Below are positions 4,547 through 18,426 of a stretch of 22,313 nucleotides of DNA, piece by piece. Below the pieces are notes generated by a model, which ran no database searches, had not been told where the DNA came from, and saw only the letters and a program-made list of their open reading frames with translations. This DNA is from a virus, in the IMG/VR virus record IMGVR_UViG_3300038557_000064, positions 1 through 22,313 of that record; one strand, given 5' to 3'. Position numbers and translations under genes: made by a program. Each line of letters begins with the position of its first letter. The stretch's first letter is position 1.

Positions 4547-4625
4547 GCCCCATTCCGCCTCTCCGCCCCGGCAGGTCGTGTGGTTGTTTCTGGACGTCAT
4601 AACCTTCCTCCAGGAGCCGCGCCCG

Positions 4626-5201
4626 ATGCCCACCGAGCTTTCCCTCGCCGATCTCGACGTCGTTCACCCCCTTGCTGAGCGCTACGCGCGTCGCCTCTGC
4701 CGGACCTTGGGGCGGCCCGGCCATGAGCAGGAGGACATGGAGCAGGACATGCTGCTCGACCTCCTGGCGCGGTTGCCCGGCTTCGATCCGGCGCGCGGGA
4801 CGTTGGCGGCCTTCGCCACGGTCTGCTTCCAGCATCGCGCATCACGTCTCGCCACCCGGCTTCGCCGCGAGAAGCGCGAACGGCACGAGGCGTCGCTCGA
4901 CGACGCGGTGCCAGGCCAGGAGGAAGAGCTGACGCTCGCCGACATCATCCCCGAATCAGAGGGGTATTCGGCGTGGTGCGGCCAGCAGACCGACGCGGTG
5001 GCCGCGCTGGAGCGCCGCCTCGACCTGGATCGCGCCGGCGCCGTCCTGGACCAGCGCGACCACAGCATCTGCGCAGCCCTGACGCAGTGCACGCCGCACG
5101 AACTCGGCCAGCAGGGTCCCCTGCCGCGGTCGGTCCTCTACCGCCGCATCAGGGAAATGCGCCTGCGGCTGCTCGCCGGTGGCATCGCCGCGGCGGCCTG
5201 A
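4626..5201 (+). CDS. Small sigma-70-like protein, first gene of the early operon
   Basis: 191 aa from ATG 4626, chosen because AGGAG (4612-4616) lies nine bases upstream; the frame is open back to 4578. Residues about 33-92 resemble sigma region 2: HEQEDMEQDMLLDLLARLPG, FDPARGTLAAFATVCFQHRA, then basic RLRREKRERHEASLDD. Residues about 135-185 (RDHSICAALTQCTPHEL, LPRSVLYRRIREMRLRL) look like a region 4 helix-turn-helix. Known sigma-like phage proteins redirect host RNA polymerase to element promoters. As the first rightward gene after the control region, it may drive the early or late genes. The region 4 part is loosely conserved, so an antiterminator or a plain DNA-binding protein is the alternative. 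Confidence 0.68.
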   Translation: MPTELSLADLDVVHPLAERYARRLCRTLGRPGHEQEDMEQDMLLDLLARLPGFDPARGTLAAFATVCFQHRASRLATRLRREKRERHEASLDDAVPGQEEELTLADIIPESEGYSAWCGQQTDAVAALERRLDLDRAGAVLDQRDHSICAALTQCTPHELGQQGPLPRSVLYRRIREMRLRLLAGGIAAAA

Positions 5202-9731: not shown

Positions 9732-11020
9732 GCTTCACCCCATCTCCCCAACAAGCGGACGCCATCCGCGCCATCGTGGATTGGTTCCAGAACCGCACGC
9801 ACCAGCAGCAGGTGTTCCGGCTGTTCGGCTATGCCGGCAGCGGCAAGAGCACCGTCATCACCTACGCCATTCAGGCGATCGGCATCGACGTGGCAGCCGG
9901 CAATGACGAGGAGGATGCGGCGCGCCGTCGCATCCTCTTCGCGGCTTTCACCGGCAAGGCGGCGCTGGTGATGACCCGCAAGGGCACGCCTGCATCCACC
10001 ATCCACTCCCTCATCTATCGCGTCTCGGAGGCGACGCCCGAAGAAATCGACCGCGTCGAGCGCGAGCTCCTCGACCTGCAGCGTGGCCTCGGACGCATGG
10101 CACCCGCCGAACGCGCCTTTGCCGAGATGCAGATCAGCAAGCTGCAGCTGCGCCTCGCAGATATCCACAAGCCCACCTTCCTGCTGAACGAGCAATCGCT
10201 GGTGCGCGATGCCGACCTTGTCGTGTTGGACGAGGTGTCGATGGTCGGGCCCGAGATGGCCGCCGATCTGCTGGCCTTCGGCAAGCCCATCCTGGTGCTG
10301 GGCGATCCCGGCCAGCTGCCACCCATCAAGGGCACCGGCGCCTTCACCGAGGCAAAGCCGGACATCATGCTCACCGAGATCCACCGGCAGGCCGGCGAGA
10401 GCGCCATCATCCGCCTCGCCACTATGGCGCGGCAGGGCATCGACATTCCGTCCGGCGAGCATGACGCGCATGTCTGGAAGCTGCCACGCAATGCGGTCAG
10501 GCCCGAGCAGATGCTGCGCGGCGGCCAGGTCATCTGCGGCCGCAACGACACGCGGCGCTGGCTCAACAGCCAGATCAAGCAGGCCGCTGGCTTTCCGGCA
10601 CCCTATCCCGCGGGTCAGGACGAGAAACTCATCTGCCTCAAGAACCGCCACGACCTGAGCCTGGTCAATGGCATGTTCCTGTCGCTGGCGGAGATCCGGC
10701 ACGAGAGCGAGCTGGCCTTCTCGGCCACCATCACCACCGAGGATGGCGTCGCCATTTCCGGCCGGCACCGGTTCTACAAGGGCCACTACGACGACCACGT
10801 CCGCTACGACCGGGACCGTCTGACCCGCGACTACCGCGAGATGCGTGGGCTGATCGAGAGCAGCTGGGGCTATGCCATCACCTGCCACAAGGCCCAGGGC
10901 AGCCAGTGGGAGAATGTCGTCGTCTACGATGACGGGCTGAGCCGCACGGCGGAGGACCGCAACCGCTGGCTCTACACCGCCATCACGCGCGCGGAACGCG
11001 GGCTGGTGATCCTTGATTGA
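9728..11020 (+). CDS. RecD/Pif1-like superfamily 1 DNA helicase
   Basis: 430 aa from ATG 9728 (ATGA overlap). Walker A is GYAGSGKST (Lys40), Walker B LVVLDEVSM (Asp168, Glu169), and motif III GDPGQLPPI. The C-terminal HKAQGSQWENVVVYDD (His387, Lys388) and RWLYTAITRAERGLVIL carry motifs V/VI. AFTGKAALVMTRKG is the RecD/Pif1-specific Ia region, and the order fits a 5'-3' SF1B helicase. Phage RecD-like helicases (Dda in T4) assist replication restart. It lies next to the primase-helicase gene, whose TTG start overlaps its last eight bases. Confidence 0.93.
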   Translation: MSFTPSPQQADAIRAIVDWFQNRTHQQQVFRLFGYAGSGKSTVITYAIQAIGIDVAAGNDEEDAARRRILFAAFTGKAALVMTRKGTPASTIHSLIYRVSEATPEEIDRVERELLDLQRGLGRMAPAERAFAEMQISKLQLRLADIHKPTFLLNEQSLVRDADLVVLDEVSMVGPEMAADLLAFGKPILVLGDPGQLPPIKGTGAFTEAKPDIMLTEIHRQAGESAIIRLATMARQGIDIPSGEHDAHVWKLPRNAVRPEQMLRGGQVICGRNDTRRWLNSQIKQAAGFPAPYPAGQDEKLICLKNRHDLSLVNGMFLSLAEIRHESELAFSATITTEDGVAISGRHRFYKGHYDDHVRYDRDRLTRDYREMRGLIESSWGYAITCHKAQGSQWENVVVYDDGLSRTAEDRNRWLYTAITRAERGLVILD

Positions 11021-13946
11021 CCTGAACGACGCGGCGCCGCCGGCACCTTCCGTCCGCTACGACCTGGACGCCATCGGCGCCCGCCTGCGCGACACGGCCC
11101 CTGCCTGGGTGCCAGGGTTGTTCCCCAATGGTCGCCGCCAGGGCGATGAATGGCGTCTCGCCAACATCCAGGGTGCGCCGCCACGCCAGTCCGGATCCTG
11201 CGTGATCATGCTGGCCGGCGACCATGCCGGCGACTGGCACGATTTCGACGGTGCCCAGGGCGGCGGGCCGTTCAGCACGCTGGAGCATGGCACCGGCCTC
11301 TCGGGGCGGCTGCTGTTTGCCGAGGCTGCGGCGCGTGTCGGTTGGACGGGCGATGCACCCGGCAGGCAGGAACCGCCACCGGCGCGCAAGCCCGAGCGCG
11401 ACATGACGCATGAAATCGGCTTTGTGCGGGAGCACGCGGTGCCGATCTCCGGCACGCCCGCCGAGCACTACCTCCAGGGCCGCGGGCTGGCCGTGCCGCT
11501 CGGCGCCGATCTGCTGTTCCATCCCGACCTGACGAACTTCGAGACCAAGACCGGCTATCTGGCGATGGTCGGCTTGGTGCGCGATGTGGCCGGCGAGGTG
11601 ATCGCGCTGCATCGCACCTATCTCCAGCAGGATGGCGAGGCGGTCCGCAAGGCCGATGTCCCCAAGCCACGCATGATGCTGGGCAAGGTGGGCGGCGGCG
11701 CTGTGCGGCTGGCGCCGATCGGTGCGCACGGCGTGCTCGGGCTCTGCGAGGGTATCGAGACTGGCCTGGCCGTCATGGCGGCCTGCCCAGGGCTGCCGAT
11801 CTGGGCCACGCTCTCCACATCCGGCCTGGAGCAGGTGCAGCTGCCACCCGAGGCGCAGCGTGTCGTGATCCTGGCCGATCATGACACCTCCGGTGCCGGC
11901 ATGCGCGCCGCGGACGCTGTGGCGGGCCGCCTTCGCCGCAACGGCACCGTCGCCGCAATCGCCAGGCCGCCGCAGCAGGGCGACGACTTCAACGACATGC
12001 TCGTCCGGGATGGTCCCGAGGCAATCGCCGCCCTGGTGGATGCCACCCTGCGCGCTGCCGTCACGCCCTCATCCCCCGCGGAGGACGAGACCGGCCGCCA
12101 CCTGCCGCTGGGCTTCCTGGAGCCGGCAACTGCATTGCCAGTGCTCCGCGCCGATGAAGGCAATCTCCGCCGCGCCACCGATCGGGCCTGGAGCGCCATC
12201 CTGGCCTCCAACCGCACGCCCTGGCTGTTCCGGCTCGGCGGCTTGCCCAGCTGGGTCACGCCCGACGATGAGGGGCGGCCCGTCGCCGCCACCGTCTCGG
12301 AGGAGCGGCTCCGCCACATGCTGGCCAAGCTGGCGGATTGGCGGAAGGTCAACGCCAAGGGCGAAGCCATCCCCGCGCCGCCGCCCACCGGCGTGGTGAA
12401 GTCGCTGCTGGCCACCCCGGATCCCGGACTGCCCATCCTCGCCGGCATCGTCACCACGCCGGTCTTTGGGCGCGGCGGCGTGCTGCTCACCGAACCGGGC
12501 TACCACCCCGACGCCCGCCTGCTCTATCGCCCGACCACGGGCTTTCGCCTGCCACCTGTCCCGGACCGCCCCACGCCCCAGGACATCGCCGCCGCGCGTT
12601 CCCTGCTGCTGGACGACCTGCTGGGCGACTTCCCCTTCACCAGCACCGCCGAACGCGCTCACGCCCTGGCCTTGCTGCTGCTGAGCTTCCTTCGCGCCAT
12701 GATCGATGGCCCGACGCCGCTGCATCTGATCGAGAAGCCCACCCCCGGCACCGGCGCCACGCTCATGGTGGACGTCATCGCCACCGTGCTGACCGGCGTC
12801 GGCGCATCCGTCATGACCGAAGGGCGCGACGATGAGGAATGGCGCAAGCGGATCACCGCCAAGCTGCGGCAGATCCCCTCGCTGATCCTGATCGACAATC
12901 TGCGCGAGCAGCTGGACAGCTCGGCCCTCGCGGCAGCGCTGACGGCCCCCTTCTGGGAGGACCGCATTCTCGGGCAATCCGAGATGACGCGGCTGCCCAT
13001 CCGCTGCGCCTGGGTCGCCACCGGCAACAATCCCACCTTCTCGAACGAGATGGCACGGCGCCTGATCCGCATCCGGCTCGACGCGCACACCGACCAGCCT
13101 TGGCGCCGCGACAGCTTTCGCCATCCCGACCTGATGGTGTGGGTGCGCGCCAATCGCGGCCGGCTGGTGGCGGCCTGCCTCACCCTCTGCCAGGCCTGGA
13201 TCGCGGCAGGCCGGCCACGCGGCCAGCGCAGCATCGGCAGCTACGAGATCTGGGCGCAGACGCTGGGCGGCGTGCTCGAGGTGGGCGGTATCGAGGGCTT
13301 CCTGGGCAACCTCGACGAGATGATGGCCGCGTCCGACAGCGAGGGCGGTGCCTGGCGGGCTTTCGTGCAGACCTGGTGGGATCGCTTCGGCACAGCAGAG
13401 GTCAGCGCCAGCGATCTCTTCGGGCACGCCAAGATCGCCGACCCACCATTGCCACTAGGCGGCAAGGATGAAAACGCCCAGCGCATCCGCTTCGGGTTGG
13501 CGCTTCGGAAGCTTCGCGATCGCGCGTTCCGCATCAGCGACAGGATGGTGCACGTCCGGCCAGCGACGGCGCTGCACAACGCGCAGCGGTGGCGTCTCAC
13601 GCCGTCTCCGAAATGCGACACCGGAAATCCCTCCCAACCCTCCCCGATCACGCCGGCGGGTGGGAGGGTTGTGGGAGGGATGGGAGGGTTTGAAACCAAC
13701 CCTAGTAGCGAAACGATCCAGGTAGATCCTGGCTCGGGGGAGGGTTGGGAGGGATGGGAGGGATTCTCTACCCCCCACACATGCGCACGCGCGCACACGC
13801 ACATGAATGGCGCAGGGGCCGGAATTCCCTCCCAACCCTCCCATCCCTCCCCAAACCCTGATTTGACCTGGGTTTCCGGAGGGGAGGGTTCAAAACCAAC
13901 CCTACCAACCCTCCCCGAGCCCTCGTGGCTGGATGGCGTGCCGTGA
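11013..13946 (+). CDS. Toprim primase fused to an AAA+-like helicase domain
   Basis: 977 aa from TTG 11013, the only in-frame start available after a TGA at 11007-11009. Residues ~20-110 are a primase-like zinc-domain relic lacking the cysteines (GDWHDFDGAQGGGPFSTLEH). Residues ~150-330 hold a Toprim domain: LCEGIETGLAVM (Glu246) and VILADHDTSGAG (Asp289, Asp291). From ~350 a D5-like AAA+ domain follows: an atypical P-loop TPGTGATL (577-584) with Ala582 where Lys is expected, Walker B LILIDN (Asp628) and sensor ATGNN (669-673) with two arginines behind. Residues ~870-977 are low-complexity and derive from G/C-tract DNA. Primase-helicase genes of this type make primers and unwind phage DNA. 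The degenerate P-loop raises doubt about ATP hydrolysis. Confidence 0.88.
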   Translation: MIDLNDAAPPAPSVRYDLDAIGARLRDTAPAWVPGLFPNGRRQGDEWRLANIQGAPPRQSGSCVIMLAGDHAGDWHDFDGAQGGGPFSTLEHGTGLSGRLLFAEAAARVGWTGDAPGRQEPPPARKPERDMTHEIGFVREHAVPISGTPAEHYLQGRGLAVPLGADLLFHPDLTNFETKTGYLAMVGLVRDVAGEVIALHRTYLQQDGEAVRKADVPKPRMMLGKVGGGAVRLAPIGAHGVLGLCEGIETGLAVMAACPGLPIWATLSTSGLEQVQLPPEAQRVVILADHDTSGAGMRAADAVAGRLRRNGTVAAIARPPQQGDDFNDMLVRDGPEAIAALVDATLRAAVTPSSPAEDETGRHLPLGFLEPATALPVLRADEGNLRRATDRAWSAILASNRTPWLFRLGGLPSWVTPDDEGRPVAATVSEERLRHMLAKLADWRKVNAKGEAIPAPPPTGVVKSLLATPDPGLPILAGIVTTPVFGRGGVLLTEPGYHPDARLLYRPTTGFRLPPVPDRPTPQDIAAARSLLLDDLLGDFPFTSTAERAHALALLLLSFLRAMIDGPTPLHLIEKPTPGTGATLMVDVIATVLTGVGASVMTEGRDDEEWRKRITAKLRQIPSLILIDNLREQLDSSALAAALTAPFWEDRILGQSEMTRLPIRCAWVATGNNPTFSNEMARRLIRIRLDAHTDQPWRRDSFRHPDLMVWVRANRGRLVAACLTLCQAWIAAGRPRGQRSIGSYEIWAQTLGGVLEVGGIEGFLGNLDEMMAASDSEGGAWRAFVQTWWDRFGTAEVSASDLFGHAKIADPPLPLGGKDENAQRIRFGLALRKLRDRAFRISDRMVHVRPATALHNAQRWRLTPSPKCDTGNPSQPSPITPAGGRVVGGMGGFETNPSSETIQVDPGSGEGWEGWEGFSTPHTCARAHTHMNGAGAGIPSQPSHPSPNPDLTWVSGGEGSKPTLPTLPEPSWLDGVP
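13629..13645 (+). repeat. C-tract block A (part of the G/C-tract array)
   Basis: CCCTCCCAACCCTCCCC. It is the exact reverse complement of the first 17 bases of block C (13737-13753) and shares 16 of 17 bases directly with the start of block D. Confidence 0.9.
13658..13690 (+). repeat. G-tract block B with seven G3 runs
   Basis: Seven runs of GGG (13658, 13662, 13666, 13673, 13677, 13682, 13686) with loops of one to four bases fulfil the standard intramolecular G-quadruplex rule. The 16-bp GGGAGGGATGGGAGGG at 13673-13688 recurs exactly in block C at 13747-13762. B continues directly into GTTTGAAACCAACCCTA, which recurs with two changes after block E (13882 on). Confidence 0.9.
13737..13852. 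repeat. 26-bp imperfect inverted repeat (blocks C and D) enclosing a Z-DNA-type tract
   Basis: Block C (13737-13762, G-rich) and the reverse complement of block D (13827-13852, C-rich) match at 24 of 26 positions, the two differences being single A/T swaps. The 64-base interval contains CACACATGCGCACGCGCGCA and its continuation, a strictly alternating pyrimidine/purine run from 13776 to 13805. C alone has six G3+ runs and D six C3+ runs, so either strand could fold into a G-quadruplex or i-motif. All of it is inside the primase reading frame. Confidence 0.9.
13776..13805. other. 30-nt alternating pyrimidine/purine tract (Z-DNA-prone)
   Basis: Every base from c13776 to g13805 alternates pyrimidine and purine, including CGCGCGC. 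This is the sequence class most prone to adopt left-handed DNA under negative supercoiling. It sits in the loop of the C/D inverted repeat. Confidence 0.75.
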
Positions 13947-15564: not shown

Positions 15565-15710
15565 GGTCCTTCCTGGCCCCGCTGTATGCGGGGGGCGGAA
15601 GCGCGCAACATTCCTAGCGCCAGGCTGTTTTTCCAGGTTGCCACGGCGCCGCGTTGCCAGCCCGACCGGACGCCATTCTTCACCACCACTATCATTTCCA
15701 GCAGGTGCGC

Positions 15711-17168
15711 ATGCCCCAGGCCCCATGGTCTGCGAGCGCCGTCGAGGCGCGCGCGGTCGCCTCCCTGCTGCCCTACGCCGGCAATGCGCGCACTCATTCC
15801 GCCGAGCAGGTGGCGCAGATCGCGGCCTCCATTCTCGAGTTCGGCTTCGTGGCGCCGGTGCTGGTGGATGAGCGCGGCGAGGTCATCGCCGGCCATGGTC
15901 GCCTGCAAGCCGCCAAATCCCTGGGCCTGGAGACCGTCCCCACCATCACCCGCGCCGGCCTGACCGAGGCCCAGAAGGCTGCCTATCGCTTGGCGGACAA
16001 CCGCATCGCGCTGAATGCCGGATGGGACGAGGCACTGCTCGCCGCCGAGGTGGCGAAGCTGCAGGAGATGGGCGGCATCGACCTGGAGCTGACCGGCTTC
16101 GACGCGGGTGAGCTCGATCGGCTGCTGGCCGGCATGGAGCCGGTGGCAACGGACCCTGGCAACGGGCCGCTTACCAGCCCGACCGTTGCCAGCAGCGATG
16201 GGCCTGGCAACGACGCGCCGGCTGAGGACCCCGCCGATGCGGAGCCCGAGCCGCCGCGCCAGGCCGTGACCCGGCCGGGTAACCTCTGGCTGATCGGCGA
16301 GCATCGCTTGCTGTGCGGCGACAGCACCAACGCCGCCTCGGTGGCGCGCGTGATGGGCGATGACCGCGCCGCCCTGCTGTTCACCTCCCCGCCCTACGGA
16401 AACCAGCGCGACTACACCACCGGCGGCGGCACGGATTGGGATGCGCTGATGCAGGGCATGTTCAAGCATCTCGACCTGGCCATGCGGCCAGACGGTCAGG
16501 TGCTGGTGAACCTCGGCCTCATCCACCGCGACAGCGAATGGATCCCGTATTGGTCCGGCTGGCTCGACTGGATGCGCGCCCGCGGCTGGCGCCGCTTCGG
16601 GCTGTATGCGTGGGACCAGGGGCCCGGCCTGCCCGGCGACTGGAATGGTCGCCTCGCGCCGGCCTTCGAATTCGTCTTCCACTTCAACCGCCAGGCCCGG
16701 CAAGCGAACAAGATCGTGCCCTGCAAATGGGCCGGCACGCCGAACAAGGGCAGCGGGCTGCGCGCAGCCGATGGAACCATCTCGGAATACCAGCATGCCG
16801 GCTTGCCGGTGCAGGACTTCCGCATCCCCGACAATGTGCTGCGCCTGACCCGCCACAAGGGCCGCGGCATCGAAACTGAACACCCGGCGGTGTTCCCGGT
16901 GGTGCTGCCGGAGTTCCTGATGCGGACCTACACCGACGAGGGCGAGGTGGTGTTCGAGCCCTTCGCTGGCTCCGGCACCACTATCCTGGCCGGCCAACGA
17001 ACCAGCCGTCGCGTGCACGCCATCGAACTGGCGCCGGCCTATGTCGACCTGGCGATCACGCGATGGCGCATGTTGCATCCGGACCAGCCGGTCACGTTGG
17101 CCGATGACGATCGGGACTACGACACCGTCGCCGCGGCACGCGTGGAGGCCACTGCCGATGCGGCCTGA
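15711..17168 (+). CDS. ParB-domain DNA methyltransferase 1 (TSPPY type)
   Basis: 485 aa from ATG 15711; the frame is open to 15654 but only this start fits the fold. Residues ~5-105 are a ParB/Srx-like domain (LPYAGNARTHSAEQVAQIAA, GEVIAGHGRLQAAKSLGLE, YRLADNRIALNAGWDE). A Pro/Asp/Gly-rich linker (~140-185) leads to the methyltransferase: motif IV TSPPYG (226-230 = SPPYG) precedes motif I FAGSGTT (418-424), the beta-class order. S-PPY usually marks N4-cytosine enzymes, D-PPY N6-adenine, so N4-cytosine is a guess. It overlaps the second paralogue by 11 bp. ParB-fused methyltransferases of phages protect phage DNA from host restriction. No restriction gene is nearby. Confidence 0.9.
   Translation: MPQAPWSASAVEARAVASLLPYAGNARTHSAEQVAQIAASILEFGFVAPVLVDERGEVIAGHGRLQAAKSLGLETVPTITRAGLTEAQKAAYRLADNRIALNAGWDEALLAAEVAKLQEMGGIDLELTGFDAGELDRLLAGMEPVATDPGNGPLTSPTVASSDGPGNDAPAEDPADAEPEPPRQAVTRPGNLWLIGEHRLLCGDSTNAASVARVMGDDRAALLFTSPPYGNQRDYTTGGGTDWDALMQGMFKHLDLAMRPDGQVLVNLGLIHRDSEWIPYWSGWLDWMRARGWRRFGLYAWDQGPGLPGDWNGRLAPAFEFVFHFNRQARQANKIVPCKWAGTPNKGSGLRAADGTISEYQHAGLPVQDFRIPDNVLRLTRHKGRGIETEHPAVFPVVLPEFLMRTYTDEGEVVFEPFAGSGTTILAGQRTSRRVHAIELAPAYVDLAITRWRMLHPDQPVTLADDDRDYDTVAAARVEATADAA
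16156..16192. repeat. 10-bp inverted repeat of TGGCAAC-type motifs inside methyltransferase 1
   Basis: CTGGCAACGG (16156-16165) and CCGTTGCCAG (16183-16192) are exact reverse complements with 17 bases between. TGGCAAC or its complement also occurs at 16144, 16205, 15637 and 15653. The CCAGCCCGACCG in the spacer (16174-16185) repeats 15657-15668 exactly. Confidence 0.8.
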
Positions 17169-18426
17169 CCTTCAAATGGAGATGATGCCGGTGGCATCGC
17201 TCGCGGCCTATGCCGCCAATGCGCGCATGCACCCCACCGAGCAGGTGGCGCAGCTGGCTGCGTCCATCGCGGAGTTCGGCTTCAACGTGCCGGTGCTGGT
17301 GGACGATGCCGGCGTGCTGATCGCCGGCCATGGTCGCGTCCTGGCGGCCAAGGCCCTCGGGCTCGACGCGGTGCCCGCCATCCGGCTCGGGCATCTGTCC
17401 GAGGCGCAGGCACGGGCCTTCCGGCTGGCGGACAACCAGCTGGCGCTGAACTCGACATGGGACGAGAGCCTGCTCGCCGCCGAGTTGCGGGAGTTGCGTG
17501 CCGACGAATTCGACCTTGGTGTGATCGGCTTCGACCAGGCGATGCTGGATCGGCTACTGGCCGACGCCGCGGGCGACGAGGGGAACGCTGGCGCCGGGGA
17601 TCCCGATGCGCCTGCGCCTGAGCCACCTGTCGTGCCGGTCACCCGTCCCGGCGATCTGTGGCAGCTCGGGCCCCATCGGCTGCTGTGCGGCGATGCCACC
17701 TCCGCGTCCGATGTCGCGCAGCTCCTGAATGGCGCGACCCCGCATCTGATGATCACCGACCCGCCCTATGGCGTGAATTACGATCCGGAATGGCGGAACG
17801 AGGCCGGCGTCTCGGCGACCATGCGCACCGGCAAGGTGGTGAATGACGACCGCGCCGATTGGCGCCAGGCCTGGGTGCTGTTCCCGGGCGATGTGGCCTA
17901 TGTCTGGCACGCCGGGGTGCATAGCCGCACGGTGATCGACAGCCTCGAGGCGACCGGCTTCGTGATCCGCAGCCAGATCGTCTGGGCCAAGTCACGCTTC
18001 GTGCTGGGGCGTGGGGACTACCACTGGCAGCACGAGCCCTGCCTCTATGCCGTCCGAAAGGGCGCGACCGGCCACTGGCAGGGTGCGCGGGACCAAGCGA
18101 CGCTCTGGGCCATCTCAAACGCCGGCGACGAGGACGCCGCCACGGTGCACGGCACGCAGAAGCCAGTGGAATGCATGCGCCGCCCAATCATCAACAACAG
18201 TTCGGCGGGTGAGGCGGTCTACGATCCCTTCCTCGGCAGCGGCACGACACTGATCGCCGCCGAGACTACCAGCCGAGCTTGCTACGCGGTGGACATCGAT
18301 CCGCGCTATGTCGATGTGGCGATCCAGCGCTGGCAGAACCTCACCGGCAAAGCCGCGGTGCTGGCCGGCGAGGAGCGGGTCTTCAACGACATCGCCGCCG
18401 CCCGCGGGGTGCAGGCGGCGGCTTGA
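17158..18426 (+). CDS. ParB-domain DNA methyltransferase 2 (DPPY type)
   Basis: 422 aa from ATG 17158, which overlaps the first enzyme's end by 11 bp. The N-terminal ParB-like domain (AAYAANARMHPTEQVAQLAA, GVLIAGHGRVLAAKALGLD, FRLADNQLALNSTWDE) closely parallels methyltransferase 1, so the two arose by duplication or share an ancestor. Motif IV is DPPYG (201-205), motif I FLGSGTT (358-364). DPPY suggests N6-adenine methylation. The linker is shorter than in its partner (~180-190). TQKPVECMRRPIINNSSAGE is the typical motif region X. It is convergent with the DUF3489 gene, with 17 bp between the stops. The sequence specificity cannot be read from the protein. Confidence 0.92.
   Translation: MRPDLQMEMMPVASLAAYAANARMHPTEQVAQLAASIAEFGFNVPVLVDDAGVLIAGHGRVLAAKALGLDAVPAIRLGHLSEAQARAFRLADNQLALNSTWDESLLAAELRELRADEFDLGVIGFDQAMLDRLLADAAGDEGNAGAGDPDAPAPEPPVVPVTRPGDLWQLGPHRLLCGDATSASDVAQLLNGATPHLMITDPPYGVNYDPEWRNEAGVSATMRTGKVVNDDRADWRQAWVLFPGDVAYVWHAGVHSRTVIDSLEATGFVIRSQIVWAKSRFVLGRGDYHWQHEPCLYAVRKGATGHWQGARDQATLWAISNAGDEDAATVHGTQKPVECMRRPIINNSSAGEAVYDPFLGSGTTLIAAETTSRACYAVDIDPRYVDVAIQRWQNLTGKAAVLAGEERVFNDIAAARGVQAAA

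Follow-up and report, generated by a model that had tools for sequence, protein, structure and literature searches.

The alpha protein of phage P4 carries a TOPRIM primase, a helicase and a C-terminal winged helix in one polypeptide, which binds the repeats of its origin with the winged helix and then unwinds and primes the DNA (PMC4234260). The origin of phage lambda is found inside gene O (PMC6022878, PMC7466680), where the iterons bound by the initiator lie within the initiator's own coding sequence and leave its frame open. The Rep helicases of SaPI use a C-terminal domain to read short origin iterons located directly downstream of their own gene, apparently as two hexamers (PMC7581432). 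In PLE, which are satellites of Vibrio cholerae, the RepA_N domains and the origins covary and are exchanged together as one module, the specificity having been shown by origin swaps, and the system is targeted by an origin-directed nuclease (PMC8263062). The locus considered here belongs to IMG/VR record IMGVR_UViG_3300038557_000064, an alphaproteobacterial prophage, the whole 22,313 bases of which were analysed and are referred to as the window. The last 350 nt of its TOPRIM primase-helicase gene are occupied by an iteron array that very probably serves this prophage family as its origin of replication, placed inside the 3' end of the initiator gene and with iterons that, judged from sequence, would be bound by the winged helix encoded by the same gene.

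The arrangement differs from each of the described systems. In lambda, four 18-bp hyphenated palindromes are found together with an AT-rich tract midway along O, the protein product of which recruits the host helicase, whereas the present array is two-fold, is built of 8-bp iterons around an alternating GC-rich tract and occupies the 3' end of a primase-helicase gene. P4 keeps its iterons at two sites, both outside the gene, in contrast to the present array, which is inside the open reading frame (ORF). The SaPI origin is also outside the gene, and the primases described in those islands are of the AEP type rather than the TOPRIM type (PMC7581432). Finally, PLE have two specificity groups with three intergenic iterons of approximately 30 bp, as against some 28 unit types here, with the array inside an ORF and recognition that can be followed from base to residue.

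In the window, the array consists of about 14 copies of the 8-bp iteron A-CCC-TCCC, in both orientations and mostly 9 bp apart. These are arranged in six blocks, A to F, whose units are ACCCTCCC or TCCCTCCC, plus one ACCCTACC (Table 1). Exact copies of ACCCTCCC occur seven times in the tail, where synonymous recoding leaves a mean of 0.47, and are absent from the other 21,965 bases. The blocks had been reported as G3 and C3 tracts in a preliminary description made from the DNA letters alone, and its geometry is borne out: all six lie where they had been placed, direct sequence comparison gives 24 of 26 matches between C (13737-13762) and D (13827-13852) as inverted copies, GGGAGGGTT-n3-AACCAACCCTA is present at 13682 and 13882, the alternating pyrimidine/purine run between C and D is exactly 30 nt long, and the reading frame remains open through the array to 13946. 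The C/D repeat includes perfect sub-arms of 17 nt and 16 nt, and the inverted repeat shared by A and C is perfect and longer than had been claimed, at 19 nt (13627-13645 and 13737-13755). The 8-bp iteron describes the blocks better than the G3/C3 tracts. Against the 30 nt of the alternating run, the gene body has no run above 10 nt, synonymous recoding gives a mean of 13 nt, and none of 200 simulations gave a run as long.

Relatives of the primase were found by scanning species genomes and viral contigs, which left 119 complete genes after copies had been removed. Nearly all are alphaproteobacterial, and none of the isolated phages in the collection covered 80% of the primase. Almost every tail, in about 100 relatives, has the same array layout with a unit that varies by lineage, following the shared form A-NNN-YCMC, of which there are about 28 types, including ACCCTCCC, ATCCTCCC, AGGTTCCC, AGGTCCCC, AGGTTCAC, AGGCTCAC, ACGTTCCC, ACATTCAC, ACTCCCCC and AGACCCCC. 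Relative to the centre, the iterons of the left half lie at about -126 and -106 (minus strand), -90 (plus) and -50, -41 and -32 (minus), and those of the right half at about +32, +41 and +50 (plus), +88 and +100 (minus) and +116 (plus). The layout is thus a pseudo-palindrome of two-fold symmetry in which the iterons step by 9 bp and the centre measures 56, 59 or 62 bp, and between the window and its closest relatives the outer blocks vary and the core is kept. The median number of exact unit copies per tail is 10, as against 0.26 after synonymous recoding and a median of 0 outside the tail, and six near-complete contigs hold 0 or 1 iteron copy elsewhere. This confinement to essentially one locus in each phage contradicts the earlier suggestion that a mobile or REP/MITE-like mini-repeat replaced the 3' end of the gene. 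The inverted repeats do have hairpin potential, but fixed positions occupied by a lineage-specific unit that covaries with the encoded protein make such an origin for the array scarcely credible. Phage records were also queried at the nucleotide level with the region, and nothing matched.

Two other candidates were set aside. The sequence GGGAGGG is similar to KOPS, and a KOPS-like or host motif was dropped on finding that the units of other lineages, at corresponding positions, are unrelated to it. Hairpins formed by the mRNA at its 3' end would keep the pairing inside each hairpin, but leave unexplained both the use of one unit per phage across the blocks and the way in which the unit tracks the winged helix.

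It is the DNA and not the peptide that is kept, because the encoded tail peptides change completely (GEGWEGWEG, GEPGEP, CEPCEP, GERGER and GGPGGP) whilst the array recurs. The earlier surmise, which gave the DNA more weight than the protein, is upheld. The alternating run, the Z-DNA-type loop of the preliminary description, is real and also retained in most lineages: the longest run in a tail has a median of 28 nt, compared with 10 nt in gene bodies and 12.7 nt after synonymous recoding, although it is absent or short in some clades and reaches 13 nt in most ACGTTCCC tails. An open frame and a conserved C-terminal peptide containing W-L are what would be expected if the low-complexity tail were selected as protein, with the DNA repeats a by-product of repeated codons. 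This is nonetheless very unlikely, since the tail is predicted to be disordered from residue 868 onwards (pLDDT below 50 in the AlphaFold model), one iteron read in different frames or strands yields unrelated peptides, the iteron copies are lost on synonymous recoding, and in two relatives (L047 and L114) the iterons extend beyond a premature stop.

In L047 and L127 (925-aa ORF) and in L114 (947-aa ORF), the primase is interrupted within the array by a frame change, and the iterons run on past the stop. These frame changes may represent sequencing error, decay or a sign that the DNA is kept.

The headline of the preliminary description was a G-quadruplex/i-motif array. On such a reading the folding of the G3/C3 tracts would be the function, whether as a pause, a primase target or an origin. 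G-quadruplex motifs are indeed present in the window and in related C-rich lineages, but they are found in only 24 of 72 non-redundant tails and in 2 of 27 with a TCAC core, with the layout and the covariation unchanged. As a shared function, folding is therefore contradicted, and it is most improbable as the explanation of the array.

That the primase reads the array is supported by the finding that the iteron bases covary best with residues of its winged helix, by co-changes on the branches of a tree and by swaps between near-isogenic sequences. For 97 non-redundant sequences (effective number 41.6), with automatic unit calls, mutual information was calculated between each variable iteron base and every column of the primase as far as residue 862. 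Of the 862 columns, the top one is 829 for N1, 825 for N2, 821 for N3, 857 for Y and 855, followed by 856, for M, with z between 6.0 and 8.4. Residues 821, 825 and 829 follow one another at intervals of one turn along one face of a predicted helix (820-833), and 855-857 are at the wing of the model. The pairings are simple. At 821, R or K accompanies N3 = T (57 of 58) and H, Q or N accompanies C (29 of 33); T at 825 goes with N2 = G (59 of 61); and at 829, K or R occurs with N1 = C or T and I, M or A with G. An A at 857 is associated with Y = T in 71 of 73 cases and S, T or V with C in 19 of 20, whilst at 855-856 HK, HN or HQ is found with M = C and RR or QG with A. The residues of the window, N821, I825, L829, H855, N856 and A857, fit its own unit.

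The branch test used a tree of the separate motor region, with four units set by hand, and out of 561 columns tested returned 829, 825, 821, 857 and 856 as the top columns for co-change (p = 8e-7, 8e-10, 6e-9, 1e-14 and 2e-8, respectively). When relatives more than 95% identical in the motor are excluded, prediction of the base from the residue has an accuracy of 0.83-0.96, as against 0.57-0.75 from the nearest relative. Moreover, one near-isogenic pair combines I825T with N2 A>G (L079/L209) and another R821H with N3 T>C (L019/L020), and two further pairs have nearly identical motors with different units and differing contact residues (L011/L012 and L080/L086). A tail close to that of the window, L057, has a mixed array: most blocks carry ACTCTCCC and ACACTCCC, and others still carry ACCCTCCC. 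Three NNN types are found in this one tail, with a single contact change, N821H, relative to the window. It looks like an array in transition and a possible intermediate in a switch of specificity. It is likely, from the covariation, that the primase's own C-terminal winged helix physically binds the iterons.

Evidence on the purpose of this recognition is provided by strand composition. The detrended cumulative GC skew was followed in 21 prophage contigs of 39-56 kb. Its global minimum lies no more than 1 kb from the array in 17 of them, where 0.94 would be expected, and the skew is higher to the right of the array than to the left in all 21. The orientation of the genes is not the explanation, because a rise is seen across the array, again in 21 of 21, when third-position skew is taken from the genes of the primase strand. 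The skew supports replication starting here indirectly and, taken with the analogy to described systems, suggests that the array is active as an origin. Covariation on its own shows recognition and not what it is for, and the array is inside a transcribed gene, so that it could instead be an autoregulatory operator at which the primase-helicase binds the end of its own gene and thereby regulates how the module is transcribed or translated, with replication starting elsewhere. Such a role is improbable, given that the array is at the 3' end and not at a promoter, that an operator predicts neither the two-fold symmetry nor the alternating centre nor the skew minimum, and that the winged helix of the P4 primase-helicase acts on origins (PMC4234260). 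A replication origin, one of several options listed in the preliminary description, is strongly supported as the probable reading. The earlier interpretation survives in this respect and in giving the DNA precedence over the protein, and fails in its G-quadruplex/i-motif and mobile-repeat elements.

Several observations weigh against an origin read by the primase, or against the generality of the recognition code. In 4 of the 21 contigs the skew minimum is more than 1 kb from the array, at 12.8 kb in G010; the skew counts are not independent, because the contigs are related and several clades recur among them; and GC skew can have other causes. When training is restricted to distant relatives, the accuracy of prediction drops for N1, N2 and Y, in the case of Y to no better than the majority base, and at the largest distances Y and N1 are predicted worst. 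The L034/L042 clade, with the unit C/T-ACC-TCAC and Ser at 857, is the one clear exception to the rule for that residue. The helicase core is poorly modelled, with pLDDT below 50 for residues 599-684 in the AlphaFold model, and in a profile comparison the winged helix gave no alignment with that of P4 alpha, such that homology was undetected.

Table 1. Positions of the primase-helicase gene, its relevant parts and the iteron array in the window
Feature	Coordinates	Strand	Remarks
Primase-helicase gene	11013..13946	+	977 aa: DUF7146 and TOPRIM primase half, P-loop helicase-like half, C-terminal winged helix, disordered tail
C-terminal winged-helix DNA-binding domain	13395..13604	+	Residues about 795-864; AlphaFold models, winged-helix matches with Z of 5-7
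Recognition helix, residues 820-833	13470..13511	+	Predicted secondary structure; 821, 825 and 829 covary with N3, N2 and N1
Wing residues 855-857 (H, N, A in this phage)	13575..13583	+	Covary with iteron bases M and Y; position from model
Block A, two iterons	13628..13644	+	TCCCTCCC at 13628-13635, ACCCTCCC at 13637-13644
Block B, three iterons	13662..13689	-	At 13662, 13673 and 13682
Block C, three iterons	13738..13763	-	At 13738, 13747 and 13756, 9-bp spacing; left half of central core
Alternating pyrimidine/purine tract, 30 nt, between C and D	13776..13805		Proposed strand-opening or spacer element
Block D, three iterons	13826..13851	+	At 13826, 13835 and 13844, 9-bp spacing; right half of central core
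Block E, one iteron	13882..13889	-	
Block F, two iterons	13899..13915	+	ACCCTACC at 13899-13906 (one mismatch), ACCCTCCC at 13908-13915
Conserved C-terminal peptide EPSWLDGVP	13914..13943	+	Family consensus P-x-W-L-x-x-V/L

The 977-aa protein contains DUF7146 and Toprim_3 domains according to Pfam and matches DNA primases in PHROGs, and its AlphaFold model matches DnaG primases in Foldseek. Its match to the D5-type helicase 8xj8 is weak (Foldseek E = 0.017). Sequence searches of the PDB with the winged helix and with the whole primase gave no matches, and Foldseek with the winged helix alone gave none at E 1e-3. VIA-align returned generic winged helices with Z up to 7, P4 alpha being absent among the matches listed. 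Past the variable array, each complete tail ends in the short peptide P-x-W-L-x-x-V/L, the tryptophan of which (W972) is more than 90% conserved. The peptide is possibly a docking site for another replication protein.

The remainder of the record carries a prophage gene set that includes a recombinase, a Cas4-like exonuclease, a Dda-like helicase, a RuvC-like resolvase and a GpA-type terminase. Two adjoining genes (15654-17168 and 17041-18426) resemble fusions of ParB-N with an N6/N4 DNA methylase, the first by Pfam and PHROGs and the second by eye only, and a small protein encoded at 4578-5201, in an early phage module, has a match to sigma-70 region 2.

The P4 genome (NC_001609) served as a control. 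It has 8-bp iterons, [CT]TGTTCAC, in both orientations and some of them 9 bp apart, in ori1 and in crr directly behind the alpha gene. With their TTCAC core they fit N-NNN-YCMC, where NNN is TGT and the core TCAC, and the unit of one relative of the window, L026, is A-TGT-TCAC; this is a likeness of pattern and is not taken as a sign of shared ancestry. The TOPRIM halves of the two proteins align, the profile match covering P4 alpha residues 64-313 with a probability of 94%. TIGR01613 (primase_Cterm, of the SF3/D5-type helicases), which P4 alpha matches, gave no match to the window protein at E 1e-3. Membership of the P4 alpha family is not claimed, because the winged helices fail to align by sequence. 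By eye, TKQGIQ of P4 matches T-x-QGAQ of the primases with TCAC-type units, which is a lead only.

A distant relative in vir525, a Methanosarcinales virus, ends right after the winged helix. Directly downstream of this helicase gene (L370:4036-4371), AT-rich DNA holds nine ATACCCGCA iterons, some in each orientation. An origin placed behind the gene would, on this evidence, be the simpler state, and the alphaproteobacterial phages would differ from it in having a frame that continues through the origin. The distant relatives RpAliso and phiAsp2 were also searched for an array and none was seen.

How the origin might operate can be outlined from these features. The winged helix of the primase-helicase would bind each iteron of its own gene, the recognition-helix face of 821, 825 and 829 reading N3, N2 and N1 and the wing at 855-857 reading M and Y. 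Protomers would then assemble on the inverted halves, so as to form a helicase complex on either side of the centre. No AT-rich window was found at the array, the spacers of which are 48-62% GC, and the centre holds the alternating pyrimidine/purine tract in place of an AT-rich unwinding element. It is at this tract that the centre would melt, after which forks would depart bidirectionally and be primed by the TOPRIM half.

A more tentative proposal is that the locus may represent a fast-diversifying system of origin and initiator specificity inside an ORF, with about 28 iteron types, a simple residue-to-base code and a Z-prone tract as the site of strand opening. Its diversification might be driven by incompatibility between co-resident prophages or by origin-targeting parasites or nucleases, as has been shown with PLE and Odn. 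The literature searched, which covered few subscription journals, held no account of the array or of the recognition code.

For a GC-rich origin in which no AT-rich element is obvious, the manner of strand opening becomes a question in itself. Recognition of origins has mostly been worked out for single initiators, whereas here there are about 28 matched pairs of origin and initiator within one family. Since near-isogenic pairs differ by one contact residue and one iteron base, the DNA-recognition code of an initiator can be read from sequence and is directly testable, and it becomes possible to predict which co-resident phages should cross-react. A likely origin is thereby located for a large uncharacterised family of alphaproteobacterial prophages.

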